22,054 nt of DNA, from the IMG/VR virus record IMGVR_UViG_3300029319_009205, positions 1 to 22,054 of that record; one strand, given 5' to 3'. Both the position numbers and the translations under genes were made by a program. This document shows positions 913-19,409 of the stretch, piece after piece. The notes under the pieces are model-generated. The model did no database searches, was not told the origin of the DNA, and worked only from the letters and a program-made list of their open reading frames with translations. This DNA is from a virus. How positions within the stretch are numbered: the stretch's first letter is position 1; every line of letters begins with the position of its first letter.

Positions 913-1254
913 TTATATATTTCCTACAGTTACCGCAACTTTTTTATTATCTACTTTTATTATTTGAGGTTCATATCCTTCATCTGATAAAAATGGTTCT
1001 TCATCTTTATAAGGAAACTTAGGATCTCTTTCATCTCTATATTTAAAAGCATAAACAGTAAATTCTTCAGGATCAACAGCAGTAAACACTCTGTCATCTC
1101 CCCTAAATGCAAAATCTTTTAACTTCGTACCTAATTGCCTTTCAACATCAGCTTGATTTCTTAAAATGTCATTTGCTAATTGTTTGTCATCAAAAAATTG
1201 TCTTTCATTTAAACGACCTTCAGCTAAATATTTTCTTAAATCAAAGTTATCCAT
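913..1254 (-). CDS. Small protein with T4-like capsid-targeting leader (113 aa)
   Basis: I do not recognise the body of this 113-residue protein, which is charged and hydrophilic with no membrane segment. The N-terminus is informative: MDNFDLRKYLAEG has an L-A-E site at residues 10-12 followed by Gly. It matches the form of the T4 internal-protein leader (about ten residues, aromatic/hydrophobic then I/L-x-E), which the T4 prohead protease cuts after Glu. The next gene upstream (1258-1533) carries almost the same leader, with 34 identical bases. I infer an internal capsid protein that is trimmed on maturation. The start at 1254 sits four bases after the upstream stop and puts the leader at the very N-terminus. 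No Shine-Dalgarno is visible. Confidence 0.82.
   Translation of the reverse strand: MDNFDLRKYLAEGRLNERQFFDDKQLANDILRNQADVERQLGTKLKDFAFRGDDRVFTAVDPEEFTVYAFKYRDERDPKFPYKDEEPFLSDEGYEPQIIKVDNKKVAVTVGNI
1216..1249. repeat. 34-bp direct repeat, copy 1 (codes for leader peptide)
   Basis: These 34 bases are identical to 1480-1513. Each copy encodes the NFDLRKYLAEG leader near the start of one of two adjacent small genes; outside this block the proteins do not resemble each other. This points to recent duplication or recombination-driven spread of the leader rather than duplication of the whole gene. Confidence 0.9.
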
Positions 1255-1257
1255 TTT

Positions 1258-1533
1258 TTATAATTCTCCGTTAGCTATATATTCACCTAATGCTGCTTCA
1301 GGTGATGATTCTGTACCTTCAATTTCGATTACTTTTCTCATAATTTCAAGTGCTTCATCTGCATTTAACATTTCATTATCTTGTACTCTTGAAGAGAATT
1401 TTAAATCACGAGCAATTAAAGCAAATAATTTTTTAGCTGGGTATTCTCTACTACTTAAATCTAGTTGTTCATTTAATTTACCTTCAGCTAAATATTTTCT
1501 TAAATCAAAGTTAGGGGTATGAAATGGCATCAT
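1258..1533 (-). CDS. Small protein with T4-like capsid-targeting leader (91 aa)
   Basis: This is a 91-residue hydrophilic protein of unknown function. Its residues 8-18, NFDLRKYLAEG, are the same leader as in the downstream gene, with L-A-E at 15-17 followed by Gly. The remainder (residues 25-91) is unrelated to its neighbour and looks helical and acidic toward the end. The leader lies a few residues further in because the frame begins MMPFHTP; the second Met could equally be the start. The inferred role is an internal virion protein processed by a prohead protease that is not encoded in this window. It starts eight bases after the stop of the 1542-2471 gene. Confidence 0.8.
   Translation of the reverse strand: MMPFHTPNFDLRKYLAEGKLNEQLDLSSREYPAKKLFALIARDLKFSSRVQDNEMLNADEALEIMRKVIEIEGTESSPEAALGEYIANGEL
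1480..1513. repeat. 34-bp direct repeat, copy 2 (codes for leader peptide)
   Basis: Identical to 1216-1249; see that entry. The spacing between the copies is 264 bases, exactly 88 codons. Confidence 0.9.
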
Positions 1534-1541
1534 AATTTCTA

Positions 1542-2471
1542 TTAATTAGGGGTTGATAAATAATTTTGGAAAATTTTAACTAATTCACCAAATTGAGTAT
1601 CAGTAATACCTGAAATTATATCCGGGGAATATTGTTTAATAAAAGATGGTGTAACAAAAGTATAAGTATCTTTATGAATTTTTAAATTTGTACGCACATT
1701 ACTTTCTTTAAAGCATGGTCCTAATTGGAATGTTTCCGCATTTTCAACTGAACAAGCAGTTATCACAATTGCACTTATAACGGGCATACCCATTAAATAT
1801 TCACATACAAAAATAATATTACCTACTCTAGTATCTTGTTTATCAGATTGGAATCCTAAATTAAATCCAGCTTCACCTATGGAATTAACCATGGCTTGAG
1901 CAAATGCTAATTCACCTCCTCCTGTAGCTAAACCTAAAACAGCTTCTAATAATTCCTTAGAAAAATTAGCACCAAATTGTTCAGTAGTTACATTCATATC
2001 TTCTTCATTAACTTGAATAAAACATCCTGATTCATCTATTACTCTTTTTAGGTTTTGATAATCATATAATGAAAAGTTTTTCTTTACTAAATTTCCTTTA
2101 GCTGGTGCAACCGCTCCGGTACCACTAGGTACAGATGGGGATGGAGTTGGATGCCAATAGAAAAATGGAGATTTTCTACCATCTTTAGGGGCAGCATTAG
2201 CTTTAGTTAAGCCTTTTGAATTATAATAATTTATAGCGTTATTTTCTAATGCCTTAGTCATTGCTGCAAAAAATACTTGTACTTCAGCAAAACATTGTCT
2301 TACACTTTCCTCAATTTGAGAATTAGCAAAATCTGTTGTTGACATCATAACATTACCTGTTTCATTAAAAACATATTGTTTTTTAGCAGGTATATTATAC
2401 GGGTTTTTAGCCGGTATATATTTACCTAAATCCGCGGGATTTGGTTTTCCATAAGTTGAATTAGTAGACAT
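1542..2471 (-). CDS. Hypothetical protein, 309 aa, possible virion protein
   Basis: I do not recognise this family. The N-terminal 40 residues hold two short repeats, YIPAKNPY and NIPAKKQY. Residues 90-125 are rich in Pro, Ser, Thr and Lys and look like a flexible linker. The second half has a hydrophobic Gly/Ala-rich stretch (LEAVLGLATGGGELAFAQAM) and then strand-like segments with three cysteines. There is no signal peptide or clear membrane helix. It lies between a cupin-like gene and two genes for tagged small proteins in one minus-strand operon, which suggests a virion or assembly role by position only. It has no (L/I)-x-E leader at its start. Confidence 0.78.
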   Translation of the reverse strand: MSTNSTYGKPNPADLGKYIPAKNPYNIPAKKQYVFNETGNVMMSTTDFANSQIEESVRQCFAEVQVFFAAMTKALENNAINYYNSKGLTKANAAPKDGRKSPFFYWHPTPSPSVPSGTGAVAPAKGNLVKKNFSLYDYQNLKRVIDESGCFIQVNEEDMNVTTEQFGANFSKELLEAVLGLATGGGELAFAQAMVNSIGEAGFNLGFQSDKQDTRVGNIIFVCEYLMGMPVISAIVITACSVENAETFQLGPCFKESNVRTNLKIHKDTYTFVTPSFIKQYSPDIISGITDTQFGELVKIFQNYLSTPN

Positions 2472-2475
2472 AATC

Positions 2476-2721
2476 TTAATTTATTTTAATTTTTAAATCT
2501 GTTGTACCTTTTAGTACGCGGTGAATCTCACCTTTTGTTATAAATATAATTTCTCCTTGTTTCATTGCTCTAGGTAACATATTATCTCTTTGAATACACC
2601 ACCCTTCACCTTCAAGGATTTCTATTTTTCTATCTTCATCATCTTGATGCCAAACCAATTCCATTGGGTCAACATCTTTAGAGAAGGTTCTTATATTAGA
2701 ACTATCTTTATATGGTTTCAT
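2476..2721 (-). CDS. Small cupin-like (RmlC-fold) protein, 81 aa
   Basis: This 81-residue protein reads like a minimal cupin. ELVWHQDDEDRKIEILEGEG supplies the first strand set with a conserved His and acidic residues, and GEIIFITKGEIHRVLKG supplies the second motif, with G, P-like turn and H-R-V. Similar small proteins occur in marine T4-like phages as I recall them. Cupins bind metals or small ligands, but the classical HxH...E...H set is incomplete here, so binding rather than catalysis is likely. It ends four bases before the 1542-2471 gene begins and follows the 2723 stop by one base. Its exact role is unknown. Confidence 0.8.
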   Translation of the reverse strand: MKPYKDSSNIRTFSKDVDPMELVWHQDDEDRKIEILEGEGWCIQRDNMLPRAMKQGEIIFITKGEIHRVLKGTTDLKIKIN

Positions 2722-2722
2722 A

Positions 2723-3313
2723 CTACCAAAAAGTATTCATATTAGCACCTAAACCAAGAGCCTTAGCATATCTGGGTAATCTACATGACCAATAACGAGC
2801 TGTTGTTCTATCTTTTGCCTGGGCACATCTATGACGAGCTGCAAATGCTTTTCTTGCTTTAGGGTTTCTAATTTTTGCTCTTAAACCACCTGAACCAAAT
2901 GTTACTTTTTTAATTCTTTTTGTTTTAGGATCTCTAACATAAACATAATATGCTTTAGGTCCTCCTCTTTTTGGTTTTCCTATTGGTGGGTCTTTTTTCT
3001 TTTTTTTCTTTTCATTTAGCATAGGTAAATCTAAAGGTACAGCTTCACCTTCGTAAACACCAAATTCACCTAAATGTGTTTTAATTAATCCTTCATCTTC
3101 TTCACTTAAACTAATTACATTACGTGAATATAACCTTCTGGCTTCCTTAATTAAGGATAAATGTTTATTTGATCCAATACGGTATACTGTTTCAAATAAA
3201 GGAATATTTTTATCTATATGATACTGTAAACCTTCAGATAATAAAGATTTTACTTTACCTTCTGTAAGTAAAGGACCTTTTGTTTCACAAGTATTACATC
3301 CACATCCACACAT
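2723..3313 (-). CDS. Cys-capped, lysine-rich modular phage protein (196 aa)
   Basis: The protein starts MCGCGCNTCETKG, with four cysteines in the first nine residues, an unusual metal-binding-like cap. Two protease-type sites follow: L-T-E-G at 16-19 and L-S-E-G at 25-28. A third, L-N-E at 99-101, is followed by KKKKKKDPP. After this basic linker, residues 118-189 form a compact basic module (KAYYVYVRDPKTKRIKKVTF ... RHRCAQAKDRTT ... YWSCRLPRYAKALGL) with two conserved cysteines, which I recall as a recurrent module in marine phage proteins. Function is unknown. The basic module suits DNA contact inside the capsid. It begins two bases after the stop of the nuclease-like gene upstream. Confidence 0.8.
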   Translation of the reverse strand: MCGCGCNTCETKGPLLTEGKVKSLLSEGLQYHIDKNIPLFETVYRIGSNKHLSLIKEARRLYSRNVISLSEEDEGLIKTHLGEFGVYEGEAVPLDLPMLNEKKKKKKDPPIGKPKRGGPKAYYVYVRDPKTKRIKKVTFGSGGLRAKIRNPKARKAFAARHRCAQAKDRTTARYWSCRLPRYAKALGLGANMNTFW

Positions 3314-3315
3314 AA

Positions 3316-4434
3316 TTATTTTCTTAATACATATCTAGGTACATCATCTGAGGGACCAGATATAGCAATGGAAGAACCTATTCCATCAATTAAATTATCT
3401 CCTGATAAATATTCTAATTTACCATTTTTATCTATAAAAAGTAAGCCGTCAAATCCTTCATATTGTTGATATTCATCAACTAACTCTTTAGCTAAATCAA
3501 TTGAAAATTGGCTAGAATTAAACCCATCTCCACTAAAATATGAATTTAAATTAAAGTTTTTTCCGGAAGGATACCAATTAGATTTATTATAAATTTTACT
3601 TAGAATATCCTCTATTCCTTTTATAAATTTATCTTTAGAAAAATTAGGATTATCTTTATAATAATTATAAATAACTTCTAGTTTAGTAGGCCATTTAACT
3701 TTTTTATCAAGCATAGATAAAGCTTCTTTTTCTTCAGCTTCTTCCATACCTAAAGATTTAACAAATTCATCAAATCTACCTTTTCTTCTTGTACTGGACC
3801 ATTCTCCTCTATTATATCCTTTAGCTATTACTGCTCCAGCTCCTTTAGTAGATCCTTTTAATTCAACATTTTGACCCCCTACATCTAAATCTCCCTTAGA
3901 TTCTCTTTTTTTAACATTATTAAATAAAATAGAAAATAAAATTTCTCCAGGACCTATGGAAACAGTACCTTCTATAGTACCACCCATTAATCTAAAAAGA
4001 TCTATTAATTTATCAGATGGAATTCCAGGTACTTGGGAAGTAAAATCTGGTTTAGACATATCTAATGAAGAAGGATTTTTTATATAATCAGCAAATTCTT
4101 TTTGAATATCTAAATCATCTAATAAATCCTGAAATTTTACTATTTGACCCCTAGAAATATTAGATTCTTTAGCTTTTTGAGCTAAATATTGTTCTATGGG
4201 TGCGGTAAAAGTAATTTTACCTATTATTGAATTTAGTTTTTTTAATTGAATAGGACTTAATTCAGTTGAGTCAATTAATTTTTTAATATCATCTTTTGAT
4301 ATTTCTTCTTCCTCTTGTTCCTTAATTATACTTTCTATTATGGTTTTTAAATAACTAAAATCTTCCTCAGTACTAGGATAGCCTTTATCAAATCTCCAAC
4401 AATTTTCTCTTATAATTTTTTCTATAGGATCCAT
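3316..4434 (-). CDS. PD-(D/E)XK nuclease-like protein with possible virion leader (372 aa)
   Basis: Residues about 160-200 carry a restriction-type nuclease core: E164 in a helix, then KGDLDVGGQNVELKGS, giving D182/D184 and E191-x-K193, the D...ExK signature of PD-(D/E)XK enzymes. KGYNRGEWSSTRRKGR follows as a basic loop. The N-terminus MDPIEKIIRE is ten residues long and ends I-R-E, and a second site I-K-E lies at 37-39, so it may be a trimmed leader of T4 internal-protein type. This reading is weaker than for the YLAEG leaders. If packaged, the protein would be a nuclease injected with phage DNA or used in maturation. It starts one base after the 4436-4882 stop. Nuclease fold is fairly sure; packaging is inference. 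Confidence 0.78.
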   Translation of the reverse strand: MDPIEKIIRENCWRFDKGYPSTEEDFSYLKTIIESIIKEQEEEEISKDDIKKLIDSTELSPIQLKKLNSIIGKITFTAPIEQYLAQKAKESNISRGQIVKFQDLLDDLDIQKEFADYIKNPSSLDMSKPDFTSQVPGIPSDKLIDLFRLMGGTIEGTVSIGPGEILFSILFNNVKKRESKGDLDVGGQNVELKGSTKGAGAVIAKGYNRGEWSSTRRKGRFDEFVKSLGMEEAEEKEALSMLDKKVKWPTKLEVIYNYYKDNPNFSKDKFIKGIEDILSKIYNKSNWYPSGKNFNLNSYFSGDGFNSSQFSIDLAKELVDEYQQYEGFDGLLFIDKNGKLEYLSGDNLIDGIGSSIAISGPSDDVPRYVLRK

Positions 4435-4435
4435 A

Positions 4436-4882
4436 TTATGCCTCTTCAGTTTCCGTTTCTTCTGTTTCGGTTTCTATTTCTTCTGCTCCTTCAACATCTG
4501 CTCCTGCCCCAGTTGCTGTTTTACCTCCATAAGCTAAAATACGAGCAATAGCTTTAGCGGCCATTTCTTCTTCATCTAAATTAAGTAAAAAATATTTTTT
4601 ACCTGATACTTGACAAATCCAGCTTCTAGGATCAAATATAAGAACAAAATTTTCACCATTCAACAAATTTATACGAAAAGTTGAAGGACGTGGTGCTATC
4701 CAATCTACTGACTCTAAAAATTTATCAAAGTCAACGGTTAATAAATCTATAATAATTGCTTTAAGTTCTGGGAATTTAACTAATTCATCATATGCTATAG
4801 CAGCATCATCTCCCTTAGTTCTTTCTTTATATACTTTTTTTACAAGTACTTTTATTTTTTCCTTGAGTTCTGAAGCTGTCAT
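4436..4882 (-). CDS. Hypothetical protein with acidic tail (148 aa)
   Basis: I do not recognise this protein. Residues 1-60 look helical (KEKIKVLVKKVYKERTK), residues 65-110 look like beta strands around FRINLLNGENFVLIFDPRSW, and the last 25 residues are a Glu/Thr-rich acidic tail. There is no leader with an L-x-E site. The start overlaps the upstream stop by TAATG, implying coupled translation with the 487-aa protein. Acidic tails are common in scaffold or core proteins of large phages, so an assembly role is possible but unproven. Confidence 0.75.
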   Translation of the reverse strand: MTASELKEKIKVLVKKVYKERTKGDDAAIAYDELVKFPELKAIIIDLLTVDFDKFLESVDWIAPRPSTFRINLLNGENFVLIFDPRSWICQVSGKKYFLLNLDEEEMAAKAIARILAYGGKTATGAGADVEGAEEIETETEETETEEA

Positions 4883-6345
4883 TATTGGTCATTTTTTTCT
4901 GCTAATTTTTTAGCTCTATCAGTAGCTACAGCATAATCAACAGGTTCAAGTTTTTTCTTACCACCTTTTTGCTTTGCAATGCCTTTAATTATATCTTCTT
5001 TTTTATTTTTTTCAGCGGCAGTTAATTTTTTTTCACCAACTATTTCTTTAACATGTTTTTTAATTAAATGTTTTAATGGTAAAACAAATTCTGTATCGGC
5101 ATCTACCTCAATTTTTTCTTCATCTATTCTCCCAACGGCCTTGAATATATCTTCAACATGCATATCTATGTAACCTACATCCGCTTTAGAAATACCTAGG
5201 TTTTCAACCATATCTTTAATTTCGTCAGCTATATATTCTACTTCACCTGATGTAGTAATTTTTTTAGCATAATTAGGATCTTTTAAAGCCTTTAATTTTC
5301 TCATGAAAAGTAAATCATGTAATTTAGCTACTCTTATAATTTCTTCCTTTTTTTCAGACATGTCACCATAACCACCATTTACTACTTTTCTCATAAATTC
5401 TTGAGCACCTGGACATACTTTATAATATTTAGTTTGGTAACCAAATACATTAACATTATCTTTATCAGCTGCTCTTTCTTCATCTATAGTATCAATCATA
5501 GCATCTATTTTAGCTACACTCTCTTTACCATCTAAATAATCAAATGCACTATCTAACATTGCATTTGCTTGAATAATTTTTTTCTGCCACCATTGTGGAA
5601 AATCTACCTCACCTTTACCATCATATTTATCAATTGCTCTATAAAGCATTTGAATCATTTTTCCAGCTCTAGCTAGTTCAGATTTTAACATTCCCGGCTC
5701 ATCATCAATATGACCTACATCTAAATCATCCATAGACATCATATCACCTTCATTTACATACACTTGACCATCTTCAATTTCATATCCTTCTTCTTCTAAT
5801 CTCTCTACAAACTTGCCTAAAGTAACATCATATCTGTTATTAGAATAAGTCATATTAAAAGCACCATAACTATCTAATCTTGATAATTCATTTGGGAATA
5901 TATCTCTAACTATATTTCTAGCTTCATCTGCTTTTTCATCAATATCTCTAATGATATCTCCAAGTTCTCCAATAGCGCTATCAACTTCAAAATCTTTAAT
6001 GTCTTCCTTAATATCAGTTTTGATTGTTACAGGGTGCATTTTGCCACTGCCTTTTGGAAATTCAAATTCTTTTTTACCTGCATCTCTTGCAGCGTCAGCT
6101 GCTAATACAAATGGGGATTGCTCTTTCACAGGTTGTGTAAGAGCATCTTTTATCATTGAGCGTAAATTTTCTAAATTCATTTTTTCAATTTTTTTCTTTG
6201 CCTGTTTAGTGGCTATACCATACATAACTTTTTCCGCATCTGCACCATATTTTTTCACTAGAGCACGTTTATTTTTCAATAAACCTTTTAGAGCGATTTT
6301 TCTTTGCTCTAGCTCATTTTCAGTGAGTTTGCGTTCGTTTAGCAT
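4882..6345 (-). CDS. Modular phage structural-type protein, 487 aa
   Basis: This is a mosaic of modules familiar from T4-like marine phages, none with a known activity. Residues 1-55 are a basic helical module (KKYGADAEKVMYGIATKQAK) preceded by L-N-E (2-4) and L-T-E (7-9). Near residues 78-110 comes SPFVLAADAARDAGKKEFEF with KGSGKMHPVTIK. Residues about 215-290 contain GMLKSELARAGKMIQMLYRA and VDFPQWWQKKI, a helical module I recall from several phage proteins. The C-terminus is again Lys-rich. The composition is highly charged and mostly helical, with no membrane segment. A prohead core or internal virion protein is the most natural guess. It is coupled by TAATG to the next gene and starts one base after the 6347 stop. 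Confidence 0.8.
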   Translation of the reverse strand: MLNERKLTENELEQRKIALKGLLKNKRALVKKYGADAEKVMYGIATKQAKKKIEKMNLENLRSMIKDALTQPVKEQSPFVLAADAARDAGKKEFEFPKGSGKMHPVTIKTDIKEDIKDFEVDSAIGELGDIIRDIDEKADEARNIVRDIFPNELSRLDSYGAFNMTYSNNRYDVTLGKFVERLEEEGYEIEDGQVYVNEGDMMSMDDLDVGHIDDEPGMLKSELARAGKMIQMLYRAIDKYDGKGEVDFPQWWQKKIIQANAMLDSAFDYLDGKESVAKIDAMIDTIDEERAADKDNVNVFGYQTKYYKVCPGAQEFMRKVVNGGYGDMSEKKEEIIRVAKLHDLLFMRKLKALKDPNYAKKITTSGEVEYIADEIKDMVENLGISKADVGYIDMHVEDIFKAVGRIDEEKIEVDADTEFVLPLKHLIKKHVKEIVGEKKLTAAEKNKKEDIIKGIAKQKGGKKKLEPVDYAVATDRAKKLAEKNDQ

Positions 6346-6346
6346 T

Positions 6347-7183
6347 TTATCTTTCTACAACGTGAGTTCTAGTAAAGAATGTAATTGAATTACCAATTTG
6401 GTCAGCTAATTTTTGATCACCCATTGCTACAGCATTATCATAGGCAATCTTTAATGAATCTTGAATTTCTTTTTCATCTTGAGTAAGACCATCTTGAGCA
6501 TCCGCTGCATCCATTTTTGGTTCTTCAGCATCCACGTCCATTTCAATTTCATCTTCTACATCAATTTCATCTTCTTGTTCAGATAAAACATCAATTATAT
6601 CTTCTCTAATTTTAGCTTTAAGTTCTGATACTTTCATTTTAAACTTTATAGTATCATCACCTTTTTTTACTTCACCATCTTTATGAAGATTATCCATTTC
6701 ATCTTGTGAAAGTTCAATTTCAGCTTCCTCAATTTCTTCTTCCTTCATGTTTTTGGCATCTGCTTTGGCTTTAGCAGCTTTAGACATTTCAACATCAGGT
6801 TTTTTATTACCTTTTCTATCAATGCCCATTACTTCTTCTACATCATCTTCTTCGTATTTAGAGTGAGAATGTGATTCTGATGTTAATATTTTTAATTCGT
6901 TTACGGGAATTTTTTCTACTATTTCACCACTTTTAAACATTACGTCATAGTGAGTTACTTCAGCATGGCCATCAGTAGTTTCCACTAATGTATGTCTTCC
7001 TTCTAGACATAAGCCATATCCATGAGATTCGTGCATTACGTGAGCAGCACAATCATGTTTAAAACCTGGTGCTGATTCTTCAATGTCTTTATCTTTTGCT
7101 TCCGTAATTAGTTTATCCTCTGTTACTTCTTCTTGAAGTAAAGGATTGTTTCTTAAATAATCTTGATAATTAAAATCGCTCAT
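6347..7183 (-). CDS. Acidic phage protein with leader-type protease sites (278 aa)
   Basis: The N-terminus MSDFNYQDYLRNNPLLQEEV resembles the tag of the neighbouring tagged proteins (D-F-N-x-x-x-Y-L), with L-Q-E at 16-18 and I-T-E at 26-28 before Ala. Residues 41-100 form a compact His/Cys-containing domain (HDCAAHVMHESHGYGLCLEG ... VTHYDVMFKSG) that looks like a small beta barrel and that I recall from other marine phage proteins. The rest is strongly acidic and helical, with runs of Asp/Glu around residues 195-225. This combination suits a scaffold or internal capsid protein that is cut during maturation. The 25-base gap before the start holds a TATAAATA element. Confidence 0.8.
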   Translation of the reverse strand: MSDFNYQDYLRNNPLLQEEVTEDKLITEAKDKDIEESAPGFKHDCAAHVMHESHGYGLCLEGRHTLVETTDGHAEVTHYDVMFKSGEIVEKIPVNELKILTSESHSHSKYEEDDVEEVMGIDRKGNKKPDVEMSKAAKAKADAKNMKEEEIEEAEIELSQDEMDNLHKDGEVKKGDDTIKFKMKVSELKAKIREDIIDVLSEQEDEIDVEDEIEMDVDAEEPKMDAADAQDGLTQDEKEIQDSLKIAYDNAVAMGDQKLADQIGNSITFFTRTHVVER

Positions 7184-7196
7184 TATAGTATATTTT

Positions 7197-7208
7197 TATT
7201 TATAAATA
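7197..7208 (-). promoter_or_regulatory. T4-late-type TATAAATA element (palindromic)
   Basis: The 25-base gap before the 7183 start contains the palindrome TATTTATAAATA. Its TATAAATA half on the minus strand (7204-7197) is identical to the T4 late-promoter -10 box and lies 13 bases before the ATG. Three other gaps in the window have a related TATATTTATA. The AT-rich background weakens the case. Confidence 0.42.
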
Positions 7209-8099
7209 TTAGTTTCTTCCTCTAGAGTTACCCCCTCTTGAACTGCCTCCATTGGATGATGAACTACCTCTAGAGATATTACTAGATGGTGGAGGAGAAT
7301 AAGATCTATTTATTGAATTTGATCTGGGTTTTATATTGTTGTTGATAATATTATTGTTATAGTTAGGTACTATAGGTCTATTGTTATTATTCCTAATTAT
7401 ATTATTATTAGGTATATTATTAGGGTTACTATAAACTCTAGGCTTAATATTATAATTATCTCTTAATTCATTAATAATATTATTAAGATTACTATTATCT
7501 ATATTTTTTCTAGGGTTATTATACCTTCTAACTATATTATTTTCTATATTACTATTGTTATTTGAAATAATATTTCTACTTCCTCTTCTGCCACTTACAT
7601 AAACTATATTATTATTATAGTTAGTATTCCAATTTATATTATTCCAAGGTCTATAAGGGCGATTCCATCCATAAAAATAATAAGGTCTATTCCAATCATA
7701 CCAGCCCCATGAGTGATAGTTAAAAGGGTAGTTCCAAGCCCAATCAGTCCAGAACCAATGACTATGAAAATAAACATCAAATCTATTATAAGGTCTCCAT
7801 ATACCGTCTAATCTTGGATTATTCCAATACCAAGAATAAGGTTGATTCATAGCATATTGAGCAAAATCCCATCTAAAATTAAAGTCGGTTCTAAGTTTAT
7901 ATCTTAATTGAAAGTAGGAATTAATTGTATCTATTTTTGTTTCATTAGATACTGGGATAGTAAAGTCCACTGGGTACATATCATCACTAACAGTAGCTAG
8001 TCTATATGTGCTACAGCCAGTAACCATAAGATAAATTAATAGTGCAACAATTGCACCCAAAAATCTACCTAAGTATTCAGGGCCTTTTCTGTCTTCCAT
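7209..8099 (-). CDS. Phage-encoded lipoprotein, W/Y/N-rich (296 aa)
   Basis: Residues 13-27 are a hydrophobic helix ending LMVTGCS, a lipobox with the lipidated Cys at 29, so export and signal peptidase II cleavage are expected. The mature part begins STYRLATVSDDMYPVD; a DD(M/V/I)Y motif shortly after the Cys is, as I recall, common in Bacteroidota surface lipoproteins. Residues 70-150 are extremely rich in Trp, Tyr, Phe and Pro (DWNRPYYFYGWNRPYRPWNN), and residues 150-250 are Asn/Arg-rich and low-complexity. The tail is Ser/Gly/Arg-rich. It is coupled by TAATG to the upstream virion-type gene. Possible roles are altering the infected cell surface, superinfection exclusion or release. The activity is unknown; the lipoprotein call is strong. 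Confidence 0.82.
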   Translation of the reverse strand: MEDRKGPEYLGRFLGAIVALLIYLMVTGCSTYRLATVSDDMYPVDFTIPVSNETKIDTINSYFQLRYKLRTDFNFRWDFAQYAMNQPYSWYWNNPRLDGIWRPYNRFDVYFHSHWFWTDWAWNYPFNYHSWGWYDWNRPYYFYGWNRPYRPWNNINWNTNYNNNIVYVSGRRGSRNIISNNNSNIENNIVRRYNNPRKNIDNSNLNNIINELRDNYNIKPRVYSNPNNIPNNNIIRNNNNRPIVPNYNNNIINNNIKPRSNSINRSYSPPPSSNISRGSSSSNGGSSRGGNSRGRN

Positions 8100-8788
8100 T
8101 ATTTTTTCTTAAATTCGGCTTTATCAGTATTTTTTACAAACTGTTTGCCTTTTTTACTACCACGTACTTTTTTAGCTACTGTAGCTTTTCTTTCCGCTTT
8201 AGTAAGGGATTGAGCTTTTTTTCTAGGTAGGCATCTAGTGGTAGGTTTTCCTTTTTTCATTGTACCACAAGGACCGGTTATATTACCTGATGTGTTAATT
8301 CTTACCCAATCCTCTTTTTTAAACCAGTCTCTTAAAGATTCTAGTACTGCTTTTTTATATGCTGAACCAAATGGTGCTGCTTTACCTTTATGTTGTTTTT
8401 GTGCTTTGGGATCTATATTTTCTTTCATTGGACTAAGATAGTCACTAATTTTTTTCATAGCTTCTTCGGCTGTGATATTTCCTCCCATCCAGTTATTATG
8501 GACATAATATAAAAGATCTTCTTCATCAGAACTACCTACATTAATTCTTTTTATACCTCTTTTAATAATCTTTTCCATATCCTCATTATAATCACTAAGA
8601 TTAATAGATTCTTTTAATATGTCAGGATTATAATAACTAGTATTTCCATCTTTATACATTCTCATGGCATCAACAATATCATCTAAAATATTTTCATCCT
8701 TTAACATTAAAATGGTTTTGGCAAACTCCTCGAAGCCAATATCCATAGCAAGTTGATTTAATTTATCTCTAGATACGTTAAGTGCCAT
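8099..8788 (-). CDS. Basic modular phage protein with C-terminal DUF5872-like domain (229 aa)
   Basis: The first 125 residues are helical and acidic. Residues about 151-210 form a basic Cys-containing module: SLRDWFKKEDWVRIN, then GPCGTMKKGKPTTRCLPRKK and SLTKAERKATVAKK. I associate this pattern with the DUF5872-type domains of large phages, though the DUF name is from memory. The end is almost pure Lys/Arg, suiting nucleic-acid contact in the virion. It lacks an N-terminal L-x-E leader. The ATG overlaps the preceding stop as TAATG, and the upstream gene ends in an A-rich tract with a slippery heptamer in the correct frame to make a fusion (see findings). Confidence 0.8.
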   Translation of the reverse strand: MALNVSRDKLNQLAMDIGFEEFAKTILMLKDENILDDIVDAMRMYKDGNTSYYNPDILKESINLSDYNEDMEKIIKRGIKRINVGSSDEEDLLYYVHNNWMGGNITAEEAMKKISDYLSPMKENIDPKAQKQHKGKAAPFGSAYKKAVLESLRDWFKKEDWVRINTSGNITGPCGTMKKGKPTTRCLPRKKAQSLTKAERKATVAKKVRGSKKGKQFVKNTDKAEFKKK

Positions 8789-9876
8789 TATTTTTTCTTT
8801 TTCTTTTTTCTACCACTCATTTGACCTTTACAAACCTTTACAGCACGACCAGATAAGTAAGCAGATGATTTTTCACCAGCAGCCATTCTTCTTTTTCTAT
8901 ATGCTTCACCTTTAGGGCAAAGTTTTTCTTCTAATTGACTGCCTAATTTTTTAATTTCTTTTAATTCAGTAGCTATTTCTTCTACTGTAAATTCTGGATT
9001 ATTTTCTTTAATAAATTTAATAGTTTCTTTTATTTCATCTATAGTACCTGATACTGGGCCTCTTCTAGCATAATAAGCTTGTTGAGCATCTGCTTCTCTA
9101 TCTAAACCACCCATTACATGATCAACTATGTCTTTTAAACCTTTAATTGAAATAGGTGTTGGTGAATAATTACCATCTACCATATAAGCATCCATTCCTA
9201 CTCCAGCTAAGCTACTTGTTTCTCTCATTCCAGCTTTCATAGCTTTTGATCTATCAATTTGATAACCACCTAATTGTCTGATTTGGAATTGATCTTTATC
9301 TTTATCATAATCAAATATTACATATTGATCTTTTCCAGATGGTTCTCTTTTAACAATGTAGCTATCATCACTATGGAAGTGATCATCTACTATATATTTT
9401 TTATTAAAATAATCAAATAAAGTACCACCATCTATTGCTTCATCTAAACCAAAATTAGTTCTTTGTCTAATTTTATCTAATGCCGCCGCCTTAGATTGAA
9501 TATATCCCTCTTGATCTTTCTTAAATTCTTTATCTAAAATATCAAATTTATCACTATCAAAATAACCTTGATTATCTAGTTTAACATCTACATCACCAAA
9601 TCTTTTCATAATACCCTCTTTCCAATCTTCCCATTGTCCCTGGCTATAGATTGTTCTTGAGCTATCATCAGGATTAGGGGCATTAAATCTTTCACTGCTA
9701 AAATACCCTGATAGAAAATCATAAGTTAAATCAGAAAGTTTACCTTTTATTTCCCTATCATTAATACCCTCATTAAGGTATCTATTTTTATTCCATTCAT
9801 ATACATTAAAATCAGGAACATTTTTGGAAGACTGGTTTTCATTTTGCTTCCATTTATATATGTCAAAGTTGTCCAT
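8788..9876 (-). CDS. Double-tagged virion-type protein with basic C-terminal module (362 aa)
   Basis: Two related tags stand at the N-terminus: NFDIYKWKQN (3-12) and DFNVYEWNKNRYLNEG (22-37). The second ends L-N-E at 34-36 before Gly, a T4-type prohead protease site. The middle (about 40-315) is mixed alpha/beta and unrecognised. The last 45 residues carry a basic module with KLCPKGEAY, then AYLSGRAVKVCKGQMSG and a poly-Lys end. The same module occurs inside the 862-aa protein at 373-410, with GRAVKVCKGQMSG identical. Both copies are preceded by L-x-E-K-L-C. It is probably an internal capsid protein matured by cleavage. A TATATTTATA element lies 19 bases before the start. Confidence 0.8.
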   Translation of the reverse strand: MDNFDIYKWKQNENQSSKNVPDFNVYEWNKNRYLNEGINDREIKGKLSDLTYDFLSGYFSSERFNAPNPDDSSRTIYSQGQWEDWKEGIMKRFGDVDVKLDNQGYFDSDKFDILDKEFKKDQEGYIQSKAAALDKIRQRTNFGLDEAIDGGTLFDYFNKKYIVDDHFHSDDSYIVKREPSGKDQYVIFDYDKDKDQFQIRQLGGYQIDRSKAMKAGMRETSSLAGVGMDAYMVDGNYSPTPISIKGLKDIVDHVMGGLDREADAQQAYYARRGPVSGTIDEIKETIKFIKENNPEFTVEEIATELKEIKKLGSQLEEKLCPKGEAYRKRRMAAGEKSSAYLSGRAVKVCKGQMSGRKKKKKK

Positions 9877-9895
9877 AGTAAAAAATATATTTGGT

Positions 9896-9905
9896 TATAA
9901 ATATA
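9896..9905 (-). promoter_or_regulatory. Candidate phage promoter element TATATTTATA
   Basis: The minus strand reads TATATTTATA in the 31-base gap, ending 19 bases before the ATG at 9876. The same ten bases occur in the gaps before the starts at 13865 and 16110. One further copy lies inside a coding region at 2539-2548, so the motif is enriched in gaps but not exclusive to them. Confidence 0.4.
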
Positions 9906-9907
9906 TG

Positions 9908-10486
9908 TTATTTTTCCTTAAGTGACTCTAGGTAATCTACAACTTGATTTAGATATTCTTCTGCCTGTTCTTTATTTATTTTTCCAATCCATTTTTCAAG
10001 TTCCCCAGATTCGGAAATAAAACCATCATTAGATTCATTCATTCTTTCTTTAAAATAAATTTTAAATTCCTTTATGCGATTATCTAATTCATTATTTTTT
10101 ATATTACGTTCGTACTCTTCCCACTTACCATCTTTTTTTAATTGTATTTCCATGTCTATAACACAATCAAAGCATTTTTTATGTATCTTATAAAATGGTT
10201 TATCATTACGTTTTTTCATTACTCTATTACAATTTGGACAAAATAAAGGCATTAAATGTGCTTTTTTAGCCTTATCTAATTTAGTAATATTTTGTTTAAT
10301 TCCATCCTTAATAGTCCAAGTACGACCATCTACCTCCCAAATATCCCCCTCTTTATGGGATTCTTCAGTTTTAGAAAAACCAACACTGGAACGTGTTTTT
10401 TCTCCATGTTTTCCCTTTATAATATTTCTTAAACGTTCAACGTCTTTTTCTTGAAATTCTTTTTTTAAAATACTGTCTTTACTCAT
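9908..10486 (-). CDS. Zinc-ribbon phage protein (192 aa)
   Basis: Residues 46-70 read EGDIWEVDGRTWTIKDGIKQ, followed by a four-cysteine zinc ribbon: C83-P-N-C86 and C105-F-D-C108, separated by RNDKPFYKIHKK. The second half is a charged helical region. I recall close relatives with the same order of motifs in many T4-like marine phages, where function is not established. Zinc binding is well supported; nucleic-acid or virion-protein binding is inferred. The start overlaps the stop of the 862-aa gene as ATGA, so translation is probably coupled. There is no leader of the L-x-E type. Confidence 0.85.
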   Translation of the reverse strand: MSKDSILKKEFQEKDVERLRNIIKGKHGEKTRSSVGFSKTEESHKEGDIWEVDGRTWTIKDGIKQNITKLDKAKKAHLMPLFCPNCNRVMKKRNDKPFYKIHKKCFDCVIDMEIQLKKDGKWEEYERNIKNNELDNRIKEFKIYFKERMNESNDGFISESGELEKWIGKINKEQAEEYLNQVVDYLESLKEK

Positions 10487-13071
10487 AAACCTAATTTTGA
10501 TAAATCGCTTAATACTTGACTTATATTTCTATAATGAATACCCGTACCACCAGCTGCATTCCATCTATCTATAGTATCTTCTCTATCATCTATTAAAATA
10601 TCTTTTTCGGATAATTGGGGTTTAATTAAATGTTTTTCCTTAGCTTTTTTAAAATTTATTCTTGGTTTGCCACCAAATAAGTCACTATGGTTTCTTACCC
10701 AAAGTATTTTTCCTAAATATGATTGTTTTTTAGTTGAAGGAGAAGTTAGTAATTCAAAATTATAATTTTTAACAGCTTGTACTAAATCTCTAGCACCAGG
10801 CATTTCTTCTATACCTACCCAAAAGCTTACTTTATGGTCTTCATCTATAAAATCCCAAAATTTATTTTTTCCATATTTAGATTCAAATTCGGAAGGTGTC
10901 ATACCTGATAAATCTTCAAATCGTTTATTAAAATTAGCTAATACACCATCCATATCAAGATAAACTTTATATTCACTAATTTGTTCTTCTAATCCTCTAG
11001 CTAATTCTAGGGCATAAGCATTTAACCCAAATGGGTCTTTTTTCTTTTTTTCTGTAATTAATTTTCTAGTAGCTTCTTCTAATCTATTACCTGTAAGAGA
11101 ATCTGTCCAACTTCTAAACATTATATTTCCTGTTTCATATGCTTCTCTTTCTAGTTGCTCTAAATAATCATCATCATTTACATTAGTAGTATCTATATTA
11201 TGTAATCTATTTTCCATGTTTTGATGAACATGAACTAATTCATGGGCGTAAGATCTTAAAATGTCTTTAGGATGTCTACCATAAGTAAAAAGTACAACTT
11301 TATTAGCTTCAGGTAAATAATAAGCGGTTTTTCCAAATAAATCTTCTCCATTATCAATATCATCATGTATAAATTCAATTTGTGGTAATGGTTCTAATTT
11401 CATACCATTATCAGTCATATGTTGAGTTAATGATGCTATATAAGGTCTAAAATCAAATTTACTTGAATCTATAGCTTCTTTAATATTTTTTTTAGATTTT
11501 CTAATTAAACCCCATTTAGGTAATTTTTTACCTTTATATTCACCATCCATTTCAAAGTTTCTAACTGAATATTTTTTACCATTATTATCTTCTAAAGATA
11601 ATTTATATCTATTAACCCCTTCTCTAGAATTTTTAATAACTTTTAATTCTAAAGATTTTTCTAATTTTTTACCTCCTAATGGAAAACCTTTAGGTGCCCT
11701 TAAAACATCACCAGGTAATATTTGTCCTGAGTAGTTAGATAAATCTATACCAATTTCTTTTACAATATCAGGTTTTCTACCCTGAGCTGATCTAGTTTTA
11801 CCTTTTTTAGGTCTAAAATCTTTTTTCTGTTTACCATCAACACCACTCATTTGCCCTTTACATACTTTTACTGCCCTACCGGCTAAAAATGGATTATGTT
11901 TTTCACCCTCTCTTTTTCTTTTAGCTATATAAGCTTTACCTCTTTTACATAACTTTTCAGTTAAGTCTCTGTAACTAGTACCAGGAGGAAATGATTGCAT
12001 TTTTCTTTTAGCTGCTGCTTTAGTTTTATAAGGACCAAATTCCTGTCTTATACCAGGTGAAAAGGGATTATCTTGCATAAAATAAAACTTACCATCTTTT
12101 TTATAAATGGATCTATATCTATACCCTGCTGATTTACCAAATCCTTTTTTTTCTTTTAATTTTTTATTTTTTAAACGTTGGGTTTTAGCTTTAGATGCTT
12201 CTTTACGTTTTTTAATATATTTAAATCCCGTTTGTAATTTAGCTTTTTTCTTAGGGTCTTTAGTTCTTGATAATGCTGCTCTTACTCTTTGATGTATCAA
12301 ATTAATAATTTGAGATTGCCTAGCATGGGATTTAGCTTTAAATGATTTTTTATTTAGAGTATTAACTATATCTTGTCTTGTACTAAATTTTACACCTACA
12401 GTATCTTTTGGATCTTCATCAGTGTATAATCTTCTACTTGAACCTTCCGGTTTTTTACCTGTGCCTTTTTTAGGATCTCTTTTCTTTTTTCTACCTTCAG
12501 TTATTTTACCAGCTACTATATTAAATACTTCTTCTGTTTCTTCATCTGATAATTCATCAGGAACAAATTTTTTAAATTTATCTAATGATACTAATGATGC
12601 TTCCCTGGCAGCCGTTCCAGATACTCCTCCTTTTGTTATTGTAGTTCTTAGTTCTAAATTAGGATAATCTGAAATAGATTTAGTTCTATTTTTTATATCA
12701 TCAAAATCAGCATCATTTCCTTCTCTTGCACCTATTACCCATAAAACTTCTTCTGTTGGGTGATTTCTAGAATAATCATATACGGCTTTTATAGGTGGTA
12801 TTGATATTAATTCTATTTTAACTTTTAAAGGTAAATAATTATTATATATTTCCCATACTAATAATGATTCAGCTTGTGAAATACCATTTCTTTCCTTATT
12901 TCCTATAAAAATTATAAATTCTTCTATTTCAGGGTTTTTTTCTAATGCTTGCTTTACAACTTCAAAATGTCCAGAAGTAGGTGGTTTAAAACCTCCTGCA
13001 TATACTGCTACAGTTTTCTTTTTTTCCTGTTCAGGTAGTAATCCTTTTATTATCTCTTTTACTAAACTCAT
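10483..13071 (-). CDS. 862-aa multidomain protein: nucleotidyltransferase, basic modules, HExxH peptidase, HAD nucleotidase
   Basis: Domains in order. Residues 1-14 are a possible leader ending L-P-E. Residues 20-170 are an HxGH-type nucleotidyltransferase (AGGFKPPTSGH; VSGTAAREA as the ISxTxxR motif). At 190-200 a linker reads ITEGRKKKRDP. Residues 200-365 are very basic, followed by L-T-E at 370-372. A basic Cys module (373-410) is shared with the 8788-9876 protein. An unknown domain spans about 435-530. A zincin peptidase follows, with HELVH at 610-614 and a likely third ligand in LEREAYETGN (640-649). At 672-680 a linker reads ITEKKKKDP. Residues 700-862 are a HAD 5'-nucleotidase-like domain (YLDMDGVLANF, D706/D708; ILIDDRED near 825). 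The (L/I)-x-E-basic-DP linkers suggest cutting by a prohead protease into separate virion enzymes. The ATG overlaps the upstream stop as ATGA. Confidence 0.86.
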   Translation of the reverse strand: MSLVKEIIKGLLPEQEKKKTVAVYAGGFKPPTSGHFEVVKQALEKNPEIEEFIIFIGNKERNGISQAESLLVWEIYNNYLPLKVKIELISIPPIKAVYDYSRNHPTEEVLWVIGAREGNDADFDDIKNRTKSISDYPNLELRTTITKGGVSGTAAREASLVSLDKFKKFVPDELSDEETEEVFNIVAGKITEGRKKKRDPKKGTGKKPEGSSRRLYTDEDPKDTVGVKFSTRQDIVNTLNKKSFKAKSHARQSQIINLIHQRVRAALSRTKDPKKKAKLQTGFKYIKKRKEASKAKTQRLKNKKLKEKKGFGKSAGYRYRSIYKKDGKFYFMQDNPFSPGIRQEFGPYKTKAAAKRKMQSFPPGTSYRDLTEKLCKRGKAYIAKRKREGEKHNPFLAGRAVKVCKGQMSGVDGKQKKDFRPKKGKTRSAQGRKPDIVKEIGIDLSNYSGQILPGDVLRAPKGFPLGGKKLEKSLELKVIKNSREGVNRYKLSLEDNNGKKYSVRNFEMDGEYKGKKLPKWGLIRKSKKNIKEAIDSSKFDFRPYIASLTQHMTDNGMKLEPLPQIEFIHDDIDNGEDLFGKTAYYLPEANKVVLFTYGRHPKDILRSYAHELVHVHQNMENRLHNIDTTNVNDDDYLEQLEREAYETGNIMFRSWTDSLTGNRLEEATRKLITEKKKKDPFGLNAYALELARGLEEQISEYKVYLDMDGVLANFNKRFEDLSGMTPSEFESKYGKNKFWDFIDEDHKVSFWVGIEEMPGARDLVQAVKNYNFELLTSPSTKKQSYLGKILWVRNHSDLFGGKPRINFKKAKEKHLIKPQLSEKDILIDDREDTIDRWNAAGGTGIHYRNISQVLSDLSKLGL

Positions 13072-13865
13072 TTTCCTAAAAACGTCCTAATTTTATTTTG
13101 TGCTTCTTCCTTGGAAACTATATTAGGTATTATTTTATCTATATTATCTTTTTTCATTAACTTAATAACCTGTTGTTTTAAAGCCTCTCTATTTTTTTCA
13201 CTTCTAGCTTTTTGAGCTGGAGTTTTAGGTTTTGTATTAGTAGGTTTATAAGGTGTAATATACTTATCTGTAATATCTTCTAAACTTTGTGAATCTGCTA
13301 ATTTTTTATCTTTAGTAGTAGCAACAAAATTATCTCCAAATAATTCCATGTACGGAAAGAAATTTTTAGTTACTTCACTCCATGTTCTCATCACTATAGC
13401 AGGGGCTAAACTTCTATCTTTACCCTTAGATCTTTCAAATCTATCATCATTCTTTTTTAACGATTTTTTTAATGAAGCATAAACATAAACCATTAATACC
13501 TTATATCCAGCATTCTCTAAATTATCCTTTAATTGTTTAGTTTTATTATAAGAAGCAGCTGTACCATCTATTACTATATTTTCTAATTTATCTATATCAG
13601 TTGCTAATTGTTTATCATAGGTTTTTTTAGCTTGTTGCATAGCAATAGCTGCTTTACTCCTAGAAGTAGCATCACCTCTTTTTAGATCTAAAGATACACC
13701 AGCATCCTTTAAATTTTGAATATAATAATCATCAATATTTAAAACTTTAATACCAGAAATAATATCACCTACTATGGATGACTTACCAGCACCCGGAGCC
13801 CCTGCTAAAATTATAGCTTTAGGACTTCCTACTTGTTCAGTAAGTAAATCATAGAGTTTAATCAT
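13068..13865 (-). CDS. Zeta-toxin-like P-loop kinase with possible capsid-targeting leader (265 aa)
   Basis: Residues 16-30 give AIILAGAPGAGKSS, a Walker A motif after a strand. Then VLNIDDYY and, after a helical region, NIVIDGTAAS and VLMVYVYAS follow, the order seen in zeta-toxin-like and AAA_33-type kinases. Those enzymes phosphorylate small molecules such as UDP-N-acetylglucosamine (zeta) or nucleic-acid ends (polynucleotide kinases). The substrate here is unknown. The N-terminus MIKLYDLLTEQ is ten residues ending L-T-E, then Gln, strikingly like the T4 internal-protein leader. The C-terminal 60 residues are Lys-rich and helical. The stop overlaps the next start (ATGA), so it is coupled to the 862-aa protein. 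Confidence 0.84.
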   Translation of the reverse strand: MIKLYDLLTEQVGSPKAIILAGAPGAGKSSIVGDIISGIKVLNIDDYYIQNLKDAGVSLDLKRGDATSRSKAAIAMQQAKKTYDKQLATDIDKLENIVIDGTAASYNKTKQLKDNLENAGYKVLMVYVYASLKKSLKKNDDRFERSKGKDRSLAPAIVMRTWSEVTKNFFPYMELFGDNFVATTKDKKLADSQSLEDITDKYITPYKPTNTKPKTPAQKARSEKNREALKQQVIKLMKKDNIDKIIPNIVSKEEAQNKIRTFLGK

Positions 13866-15627: not shown

Positions 15628-16110
15628 CTACTTACGCTCTGCCACGAGATCCTCAAATTCTATGTTTTGTAAATCTTTAGTATAAAATTTACCTAAAATA
15701 TTATCATTAAAGAATTCATCAGGTTTTTCCAATACTTGATATAGCATTTGATATTTTACTTCAAAATAAGTTAATGTTTTTTTATCAGGGCACATCTTTA
15801 AAATAGTGCGTTTAAATTCATCTTTTTTACCTTCAAGTAATAGTTGTTTAATATCTTTTTGAGAACCATAATATGTTTTCCAATCTGATTCTTTTACTTC
15901 TAATTTATATGCAGGACGCCTCCCAACTATACCTTGTAGTTTTTCTAATTCTCTCTTTCCAAGTTTTTTCTTTTTATTATGAAATAAGACTTTTTTCCCA
16001 ATATATGATTTTCCAGATGGGTTATGAGTAACAATGTAGACGAAACCAAATGTATTTTCTGGAAATTGAGTAATGTCGCCTATTTGATGTGTTTTATAGG
16101 TCCAACTCAT
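15628..16110 (-). CDS. GIY-YIG endonuclease-like protein (SegE-like), 160 aa
   Basis: Residues 22-40 read GFVYIVTHNPSGKSYIGKK, a clear GIY-YIG pair (V24-Y25-I26 and Y36-I37-G38). Lys-rich helices and the W-K-T-Y-Y-G-S motif at about 97-103 follow, which matches the SegE-type GIY-YIG proteins of T4-like phages as I recall them. The family cuts DNA and includes free-standing homing endonucleases. The position between the primase and an unrelated glycan cluster suits a mobile or recently inserted gene. The start is an ATG at 16110, with TATATTTATA ending 14 bases upstream. Confidence 0.85.
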   Translation of the reverse strand: MSWTYKTHQIGDITQFPENTFGFVYIVTHNPSGKSYIGKKVLFHNKKKKLGKRELEKLQGIVGRRPAYKLEVKESDWKTYYGSQKDIKQLLLEGKKDEFKRTILKMCPDKKTLTYFEVKYQMLYQVLEKPDEFFNDNILGKFYTKDLQNIEFEDLVAERK

Positions 16111-18007: not shown

Positions 18008-19409
18008 TAAATCTGCTATATTGTGAATCATAAGGATATTTTTCCCACCCATATTTAGGCCATTCTAAGTCTATATTTTGTTTAGGAAAAGATTTAAATA
18101 CTTGTTTAGATAAAACATTACTTAATACTAATGCATGTTCATAATAAGGAGAATCATCATATAAGTATTGTTCTGGTTTTAATAACCATTTTTTTATTTT
18201 TTCATTAAATTTAGAGCAATAATGACTACCAATATAAGATTCAGTTCTAATGTAACAATCATAATATTTCCAGTAATCTTCTCTTTTCATTTTTACTTTA
18301 TCTTCTATACCTAAGGGTTCTAGTGGCATATCAAATATATCAATTAAGTCTTCTTTGTGACCCCAAAAAACATGGTCTCTGGGATGGAATGGGAATCCTT
18401 CAAACATACCTGCTACTAATACTCTATTTTTAGGTTTAGTTTCATCTCCTTCATATGTAATTATTCTTTCTTTATTTTTATGGAAAAATTCATACATAAT
18501 ATTCATGCTATTTAGATCATATCTTTGATCATTTCTCATTTTAATAGCAAATTTTGTTTTTACCTTTTTTAAACCATTTAATGAAGATACTATTTGTAAA
18601 TTTCTATTTCCTGTACCATTTACATTAGGTAAATTATTTTTAACAATTTTAATTTTTAAATTATTATTAAAAGGTATATCATCATCTTCCCAACAAGAAA
18701 GGATTACATTATTTACAAAATTTAATTGTAAATAATGATTAGCAGTATCTAAAACATACTGGGAGCATTTTCCCTGCAAAACAATATCTATTTTAGAATC
18801 ATCTACATTATCTTCAGATGTAAGAGAGGAAATAAATTCATCCGTAAACCCAAAATTTCTTAAATTATTAATACAAATTTTAGCATAGGGTTCTGTGATG
18901 TTAGGGTGTTGTAAAGTTTCTTTCCATAATTCTCTACATAAATCTCTTTGACCTACATACCAACTACTAAAAGCTTTTTGAAATAGTAAACTAAAGTCCC
19001 CAGGATATTGTACATCTGTTCTACACTTTTTAGTATTATGTTCAGTTAATTCTAGTCCTACTTTAGCAAAGTAATAACATGATTTCCATTCTTTTTTATC
19101 ACCATGATTTTTGCTTAATAAATAGTAAGCTTCAGGTCGTTTAGGATCATGGGTAATAGCTGTAATTAATTGTTGATATTCATACCAAGGTCTTCTACCA
19201 GATTTATTAACACATGACCATGTTTTTAGTAAACATTCATATATTAAATCCTTATCCTCACTCATTTCTGCGCACCTTAAATAATAGGATAATGCAGAAG
19301 CGTTTTGACCAATTTGTTCATATTCCCAACCTAACCAAAAATTAATTTCGGGATCCAGGGGGTTTTCAATATACTGGTTTAATAAAGGTTGTATTTTATT
19401 CTCGTTCAT
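17979..19409 (-). CDS. TPR plus WavE-like glycan-synthesis protein (476 aa)
   Basis: Residues 20-170 form TPR-like helical hairpins (FWLGWEYEQIGQNASALSYY; EAYYLLSKNHGDKKEW). Residues about 207-420 resemble the WavE family of lipopolysaccharide-synthesis proteins: IDIVLQG..., VILSCWEDDD, then FAIKMRNDQRY (K290, R292, D294) and HVFWGHKEDL (346-355). The TPR-plus-glycosyl layout is common in uncultured phage glycan genes. It may act as a glycosyltransferase or partner in building or modifying a surface or virion glycan. The gene overlaps both neighbours by 14-29 bases, indicating a tight operon. The WavE assignment is from motif memory. Confidence 0.8.
   Translation of the reverse strand: MNENKIQPLLNQYIENPLDPEINFWLGWEYEQIGQNASALSYYLRCAEMSEDKDLIYECLLKTWSCVNKSGRRPWYEYQQLITAITHDPKRPEAYYLLSKNHGDKKEWKSCYYFAKVGLELTEHNTKKCRTDVQYPGDFSLLFQKAFSSWYVGQRDLCRELWKETLQHPNITEPYAKICINNLRNFGFTDEFISSLTSEDNVDDSKIDIVLQGKCSQYVLDTANHYLQLNFVNNVILSCWEDDDIPFNNNLKIKIVKNNLPNVNGTGNRNLQIVSSLNGLKKVKTKFAIKMRNDQRYDLNSMNIMYEFFHKNKERIITYEGDETKPKNRVLVAGMFEGFPFHPRDHVFWGHKEDLIDIFDMPLEPLGIEDKVKMKREDYWKYYDCYIRTESYIGSHYCSKFNEKIKKWLLKPEQYLYDDSPYYEHALVLSNVLSKQVFKSFPKQNIDLEWPKYGWEKYPYDSQYSRFNERWDEDGY

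Follow-up and report, generated by a model that had tools for sequence, protein, structure and literature searches.

Short N-terminal leaders in an uncultured T4-like phage point to a probable expanded capsid-targeting system with putative modular cargo

The 22,054-nucleotide stretch analyzed here (the window) is the entire 22-kb record IMGVR_UViG_3300029319_009205 of an uncultured virus, and its main genes all lie on the minus strand. An earlier note on this DNA had pointed out that otherwise unrelated proteins of one operon begin with short leaders ending in (L/I)-x-E, like the leaders that phage T4 cuts from its internal proteins, and had proposed that the operon encodes a set of proteins packaged in the capsid. 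All of the N-termini it quoted, for genes 913, 1258, 8788, 13068, 10483, 2723, 6347, and 3316 (named here by their lower coordinate), are present at those genes on the minus strand.

The closest named relative is Flavobacterium phage immuto, with 50% identity in the primase; a DNA search of the whole window against named phages gave no match. Immuto is T4-like, and its block homologous to the window directly precedes genes for the gp20 portal, a gp21-type protease, and gp23, the last matching Pfam PF07068 at 6e-84. The leader block adjoins terminase, portal, protease, and gp23 in several contigs as well. A FAD-protein gene is truncated at the low end of the window, and since terminase and portal come within a few kilobases of this gene in contigs L144 and L208, the window appears to end just before the head genes. 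The best explanation is that it comes from the late head-gene region in a T4-like relative of immuto. Outside the operon, the gene at 15628-16110 carries a PHROG label of NAD synthetase that looks wrong, as Pfam places it in the SegE GIY-YIG endonuclease family at 3e-27.

In the T4 leader MKTYQEFIAE, targeting depends on residues 4 and 7, and cutting on residues 8 and 10 (PMC9026906). Because the bare [LI]-x-E motif had been picked by eye in the same data, we used an externally defined pattern derived from T4 mutagenesis (P7 and P4 hydrophobic, L/I/V at P3, with V added, and E at P1), scored within the first 30 residues, with expectation obtained by shuffling. This full pattern occurs in 6 of 15 operon genes, compared to 0.57 expected by shuffling and 0.39 from internal windows, and in 1 of 11 upstream genes (0.31 expected). 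For the bare motif within residues 2 to 20, the operon has 9 of 15 genes, versus 4.3 in composition shuffles (p=0.007), and the upstream genes have 1, versus 1.4. The homologous block of immuto repeats the result, with the full pattern in 12 of 21 genes (0.84 expected); head genes have 3 of 15 (0.48 expected), and the remainder of the genome is near chance. Four further viral contigs of 155-170 kb together carry the pattern in 29 of 104 block genes, compared to 4.4 expected, and outside the block in 57 of 713 genes, compared to 30.7, a surplus that is partly due to second leader clusters. The block was taken as the primase-terminase interval, and counts within 25 kb of the protease were dropped as misleading, the contigs being permuted. 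Defined in this way, it is always where leaders are enriched in immuto and the four contigs, although the number of tagged genes varies, with just 4 block matches each in G042 and G037. The window leaders are real and nonrandom, and they spread well beyond the window.

Leaders also persist where the proteins behind them have diverged. Among nonredundant relatives with diverged bodies, LxE is kept in 95% of 43 members of the 13068 kinase family, whose body is preceded by LxE in 37 of 38 N-terminal cases, and in 97% of 89 members of the 2723 family, so that aligning leaders from related phages, as the earlier note advised, bears out the leaders of both. Among the controls, LxE was found in 0% of portal proteins and showed no excess in the FAD protein. 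The same test led us to reject 3316, which the note had offered as a weak example (IIRE): its N-terminus is not conserved, and its relatives mostly read MNIFDKFLHSVSYKF or similar. A conserved leader was present in 0 of 88 relatives of 9908, and none was found for operon genes 4436, 4882, 2476, and the lipoprotein-like 7209; the operon is therefore only partly tagged. The last of these, at 7209-8099, is rich in Asn and Trp/Tyr and has a lipoprotein-like signal (LMVTGC).

Rather than one leader family, as had been supposed, there are several classes. Class A (MDNFDLRKYLAEG-KLLKE) is the commonest and precedes about 37 unrelated body families; class B (MKKSELKQLIKEEI-KVL-E) precedes 23, and class C (MIKL-DLL-E) precedes 21. 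The kinase usually carries class C, but in L084, the same body carries class A. Within a contig, the DNA of class A leaders is 80% identical, compared to 35% for the bodies and 43% for upstream DNA, and the leaders of 913 and 1258 are identical over 33 of 33 nucleotides while their bodies are unrelated. Judged by these comparisons, leaders of three classes or more behave as cassettes that can replace one another. A pattern scan for class A found matches in at least 120 viral stretches, and of 102 matches examined, 89 were at a start codon and 11 were internal. Across 84,980 bacterial and archaeal species genomes, the scan gave one match, on a contig whose phage gene order places it in the same phage group. 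Searching leader peptides against named phages by tblastn gave no match, which with such short queries is not decisive. A fourth leader type (MKKQILSEQFRRMQKLAGIITE) occurs at L051:21676-22140, L221:9250-10479, L168:15388-15765, and G046 155607; it looks much like the sequence with which putative scaffold proteins end at the C terminus (RMQQLAGIIK, ERFKKLAGIIK), as though a docking helix of the scaffold had been copied. In T4 itself (NC_000866), gp61.1 at 18966-19130 starts MKTFKEFIKED, close to the internal-protein leader, and is possibly an unrecognized packaged protein.

Sites of the form [LIV]-x-E, which the earlier note did not mention, also lie inside 10483, 8788, 8099, 6347, and 2723 (Table 1). 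Modules that are encoded alone with a leader elsewhere reappear within fused proteins with such a site at or near the joint; conversely, the body of 913 is internal in L144, fused after KPVNE with 96% identity. The clearest arrangement is the 862-residue product of 10483, which contains an NMNAT-like adenylyltransferase, two strongly basic regions, a further module, a zincin-like HELVH domain, and a HAD 5'-nucleotidase. It looks like cargo modules strung together by protease sites because [LIV]-x-E sites precede modules that are separate leader genes elsewhere. Of 14 nucleotidase modules that lie within proteins, 13 have a site (2.7 expected), as do 22 of 23 DWFK modules (5.4 expected); mapped onto joints, the leader site is exactly conserved in 264 of 920 (19 expected), counts that are not independent, as related sequences are counted repeatedly. 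An AlphaFold model of the 862-residue protein (mean predicted local distance difference test score, 72) contains a well-folded adenylyltransferase with PDB matches to CoaD/NadD, the HAD phosphatase, and the HELVH domain. LxE sites after residues 14, 192, 307, 439, 532, 666, 674, and 696 fall in low-confidence stretches, those after 372 and 700 are at most 2 residues from one, and those after 6, 51, 74, 588, 744, 756, and 822 are within folded parts. The sites between modules are thus in or beside putative low-confidence linkers.

Table 1. Leaders and internal sites in the window (↓, predicted cut after Glu)
Positions	Strand	Feature	Remarks
13836..13865	-	Class C leader MIKLYDLLTE↓Q, gene 13068-13865 (zeta-toxin/polynucleotide-kinase-like P-loop protein)	
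10483..13071	-	Putative cargo polyprotein, 862 residues	LxE joints after residues 14, 192, 372, 439, 532, 674, 700
13030..13071	-	Leader MSLVKEIIKGLLPE↓Q of the 862-residue multidomain protein (gene 10483; GLLPE14)	Predicted helix 2-11, low-confidence residues 12-15
12496..12516	-	Internal site GKITE↓GRKKKRDPKKGTGKKPEG	Module separate with leader in L049 and L174 (EILNE↓ADPKKGTGKKPKG)
11956..11976	-	Internal site DLTE↓KLCKRGKAY	Module separate in L188/L189 (EILTE↓KLCKRGKAY)
11755..11775	-	Internal site DIVKE↓IGIDLSNYSGQ	Module separate in L049 (MIKLFDILSE↓IGINLSNYKGQ)
11476..11496	-	Internal site NIKE↓AIDSSKF, ahead of zincin-like domain	
11050..11070	-	Internal site KLITE↓KKKKDPFG, zincin-like/nucleotidase boundary	
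10972..10992	-	Internal site QISE↓YKVYLDMDGV, ahead of nucleotidase	Immuto: separate nucleotidase gene, leader ADLLLE↓E
9766..9876	-	Tandem class A-like leader FDIYKW...FNVYEWNKNRYLNE↓G (RYLNE), gene 8788-9876	
9439..9480	-	Internal site GLDE↓AIDGGTLFDYF, gene 8788	L065: module behind class A leader (LLNE↓AMDGGRLFDYF)
8926..8955	-	Internal site QLEE↓KLCPKGEAY, ahead of C-terminal basic Cys module, gene 8788	
8339..8368	-	Internal site VLE↓SLRDWFKKED, gene 8099-8788	Many relatives have a leader directly on this module
7100..7183	-	Leader of acidic protein 6347-7183, sites LLQE and LITE28↓A	Net charge -40
6578..6634	-	Class B leader-like stretch KVSELKAKIREDIIDVLSE↓QEDE inside gene 6347	Starts a separate gene in L143 and L151
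3316..4434	-	Gene with IIRE10 N-terminus	Not a conserved leader
3233..3313	-	Two-site leader (LLTE18↓G, LLSE27↓G), basic protein 2723-3313	
3011..3040	-	Internal site PMLNE↓KKKKKKDPP, ahead of basic C-terminal module (phrog_7595), gene 2723	
1483..1533	-	Class A leader PNFDLRKYLAE17↓G, gene 1258-1533	
1219..1254	-	Class A leader MDNFDLRKYLAE↓G (FDLRKYLAE12), gene 913-1254	

A protease that would suit these sites is encoded by the relatives. The search for a gp21-like prohead protease that the earlier note called for found a homologue in immuto and in 12 related contigs, four of them 155-170 kb long, and both proteases tested match Pfam Peptidase_S77 (PF03420), at 8.9e-35 for immuto gp201 and 7.2e-30 for the other. 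In gp23 precursors from eight contigs, immuto, and Mel-JY01, [LIV]-x-E↓[SAT] occurs at one alignable place, where the propeptide is expected to end (QAKQ-LVVE↓SS, IVSE↓AN, LVQE↓AS, and LISE↓AN). As these sites have the [LIV]-x-E form, the cutting preference of the protease in this group is consistent with the leaders. Some major capsid precursors (L221:7617-9221 and other gp23 genes) themselves start in a class C-like manner, with MSLQTLLESAN or MNVNTLLEGAS, as does T4 gp24 (MAKINELLRES).

Taken together, the motif, its enrichment and position, its conservation and modularity, the protease and capsid cut site of the relatives, and the equivalence of leader and internal site for several modules are best explained by a greatly expanded T4-type capsid-targeting system, in which leaders send proteins into the forming head and are then removed by the protease; we put the probability of this reading at roughly 80%. 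The short amphipathic leader would dock a protein onto the prohead scaffold core, as the T4 capsid-targeting sequence does, and the gp21-type protease of the phage would then cut after the leader Glu. The mature protein would remain in the head with the DNA and probably be ejected into the next host. From these observations we infer packaging, cutting, ejection, and a role for the cargo after entry; passage into the host, and what becomes of fused cargo, are drawn by analogy with T4 Alt and the internal proteins. The proposal that the operon encodes a packaged set is supported, in that its leaders match the four T4 positions, are modular, and are largely confined to the block, but several operon genes carry no tag.

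One leader could bring in several fused modules, which the protease would separate at the same kind of site, and comparison with the separate genes makes it probable that the fused multimodule proteins are polyprotein cargo. A broader idea, which we favor by a narrow margin, is that the prohead protease serves as a polyprotein protease for cargo, with leader plus site as the unit of exchange. Any module behind an [LIV]-x-E joint, alone or fused, would then enter the head and be released separately, giving a payload that is modular, can evolve, and could reach ten proteins or more.

Several results weigh against these interpretations. The bare motif on which the earlier note was built exceeds chance only about 2-fold, compared to about 10-fold for the full pattern. 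Of the 10 known gp21 substrates of T4, the full pattern recovers 4, and it has 22 matches in T4 where 12.4 are expected; it is therefore incomplete and, for individual genes, not clean. Some leader-like starts are far from head genes. The window record, a 22-kb fragment, has no protease gene, and virion protein data for immuto were not found in the literature. The first junction test may have been inflated by homology extending across the site, and in a strict version counting only unaligned linkers, the excess drops to 494 of 902 versus 245, with a majority excess in 37 of 72 module families, so the joint rule holds firmly for certain modules and not at all for the rest. In the model of the 862-residue protein, only 8 of 17 LxE sites are strictly in low-confidence residues (4.1 expected, P=0.035), and low confidence is not proof of a linker.

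The distant starts form groups of their own: second leader-gene groups at G043 60-70 kb, at G046 40-65 kb, and at immuto 1803 and 24569 resemble small accessory loci.

What the proteins do once inside could differ from delivery. The leaders might target proteins and be cut while the proteins themselves belong to the scaffold or core and are broken down or lost as the head matures, in the way that gp21 cleaves T4 gp22, gp67, and gp68 into fragments (PMC5694885). The strong acidity of 6347 and the Glu-rich composition of several leader proteins fit such a fate, but many bodies are predicted folded enzymes (kinase, nucleotidase, and NMNAT-like) or strongly basic modules, and sites lie between domains, where cutting would free them intact; we consider this explanation unlikely. 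As cargo, the P-loop kinase, the NMNAT-like enzyme, the nucleotidase, and the small basic paired-cysteine modules suggest nucleotide metabolism and DNA binding. Modules of the last kind, small and very basic with conserved cysteines (phrog_7595, phrog_23735, and phrog_27331), recur behind leaders at 2723-3313, 8099-8788, 8788-9876, and 10483-13071. Nearly all leader bodies were without a known family in Pfam and PHROGs searches; Pfam named about 10 families, mostly uninformative, among 139 leader-bearing bodies, and among these and the window proteins it found no T4 internal-protein or Alt family. A predicted structure of 2723 was a moderate model with no PDB match and no known fold. Four proteins were suspected of being ADP-ribosyltransferases and thus cargo of the T4 Alt kind, but we do not claim this, as only the leader protein L085:590-1051 gave a subthreshold PARP match (E 0.011); that match, if real, would parallel Alt.

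A less likely explanation is that the multidomain protein belongs to the classic polyvalent type and that its own zincin-like metallopeptidase, not the prohead protease, processes it, with the intermodule LxE sites a coincidence. The HELVH domain is present, and zincin autoprocessing of such phage proteins has been proposed (Iyer et al. 2017; PMC5512222), but the assignment here is by the HExxH motif and a conserved downstream Glu only, and the joints share the [LIV]-x-E form with separate-gene leaders and the gp23 cut site even in proteins that have no zincin domain (8788, 8099, and 2723). It is more improbable again that the leaders act as docking helices in some other late process, such as one involving a chaperone, the terminase, or the tail, with LxE incidental. 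The motif is short and targeting in T4 is separable from cutting (PMC9026906), but the Glu is kept at the right place in diverged families and shared with the gp23 precursor, and the tail genes of immuto have no clear excess (2 of 24 versus 0.81). Chance, in the form of a short motif common enough in a Glu- and Leu-rich proteome for several to be picked out by eye, is excluded for the leader family as a whole by replication of an external pattern in five other phage genomes or contigs, together with the near-chance rates in the remainder of immuto; it holds for isolated weak examples like 3316.

A capsid-targeting system of the proposed kind has several known counterparts. T4 packages three internal proteins plus Alt. 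The capsid-targeting sequences of IPI to IPIII and Alt, cut by gp21, are likewise short N-terminal leaders with four functional positions (two for targeting and two for cutting) and an L/I-x-E cut, placed on unrelated bodies, and the relatives of the window share the gp21-family protease and gp23. In contrast to T4, the window group has no fewer than three classes of leader, genomes in which the tagged proteins can number about ten or more, cassette-like spread, and the same sites inside multimodule proteins, and its bodies are not homologous to the T4 internal proteins as far as tested. For phage P1 and its Dar system, which belong to another phage family, we know of no shared short leader. 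The Dar proteins are similar in being capsid-targeted cargo, with a targeting region that suffices to direct a reporter to the capsid (PMC9024508). The ejection proteins of phiKZ and SPN3US are also numerous inner-head proteins with N-terminal propeptides, cut by a prohead protease after Glu with multiple sites per propeptide, but several of those propeptides exceed 100 residues and the sites read A-x-E or S/A/G-x-E (PMC5694885), whereas the leaders of the window group have 10-40 residues and their sites read [LIV]-x-E. The polyvalent proteins of phages (Iyer et al. 2017) combine several domains, zincin-like and nucleotide-related ones among them, and packaging and injection have been predicted for them; the 862-residue protein, with several unrelated enzymatic domains that include a zincin-like metallopeptidase by motif, matches them in domain makeup. 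Processing there is proposed to occur via the embedded zincin; the window group instead has prohead-protease-type sites between modules, and its modules switch between fused and separate leader-bearing forms.

With these leaders, a large set of unannotated phage genes becomes predicted capsid cargo from sequence alone, and there is a sequence rule for spotting injected proteins in uncultured T4-like phages. The isolate Flavobacterium phage immuto makes the prediction directly testable. If the polyprotein reading is true, prohead proteases would have a second job, and the joints would show a natural way of filling a phage head with more than one protein.

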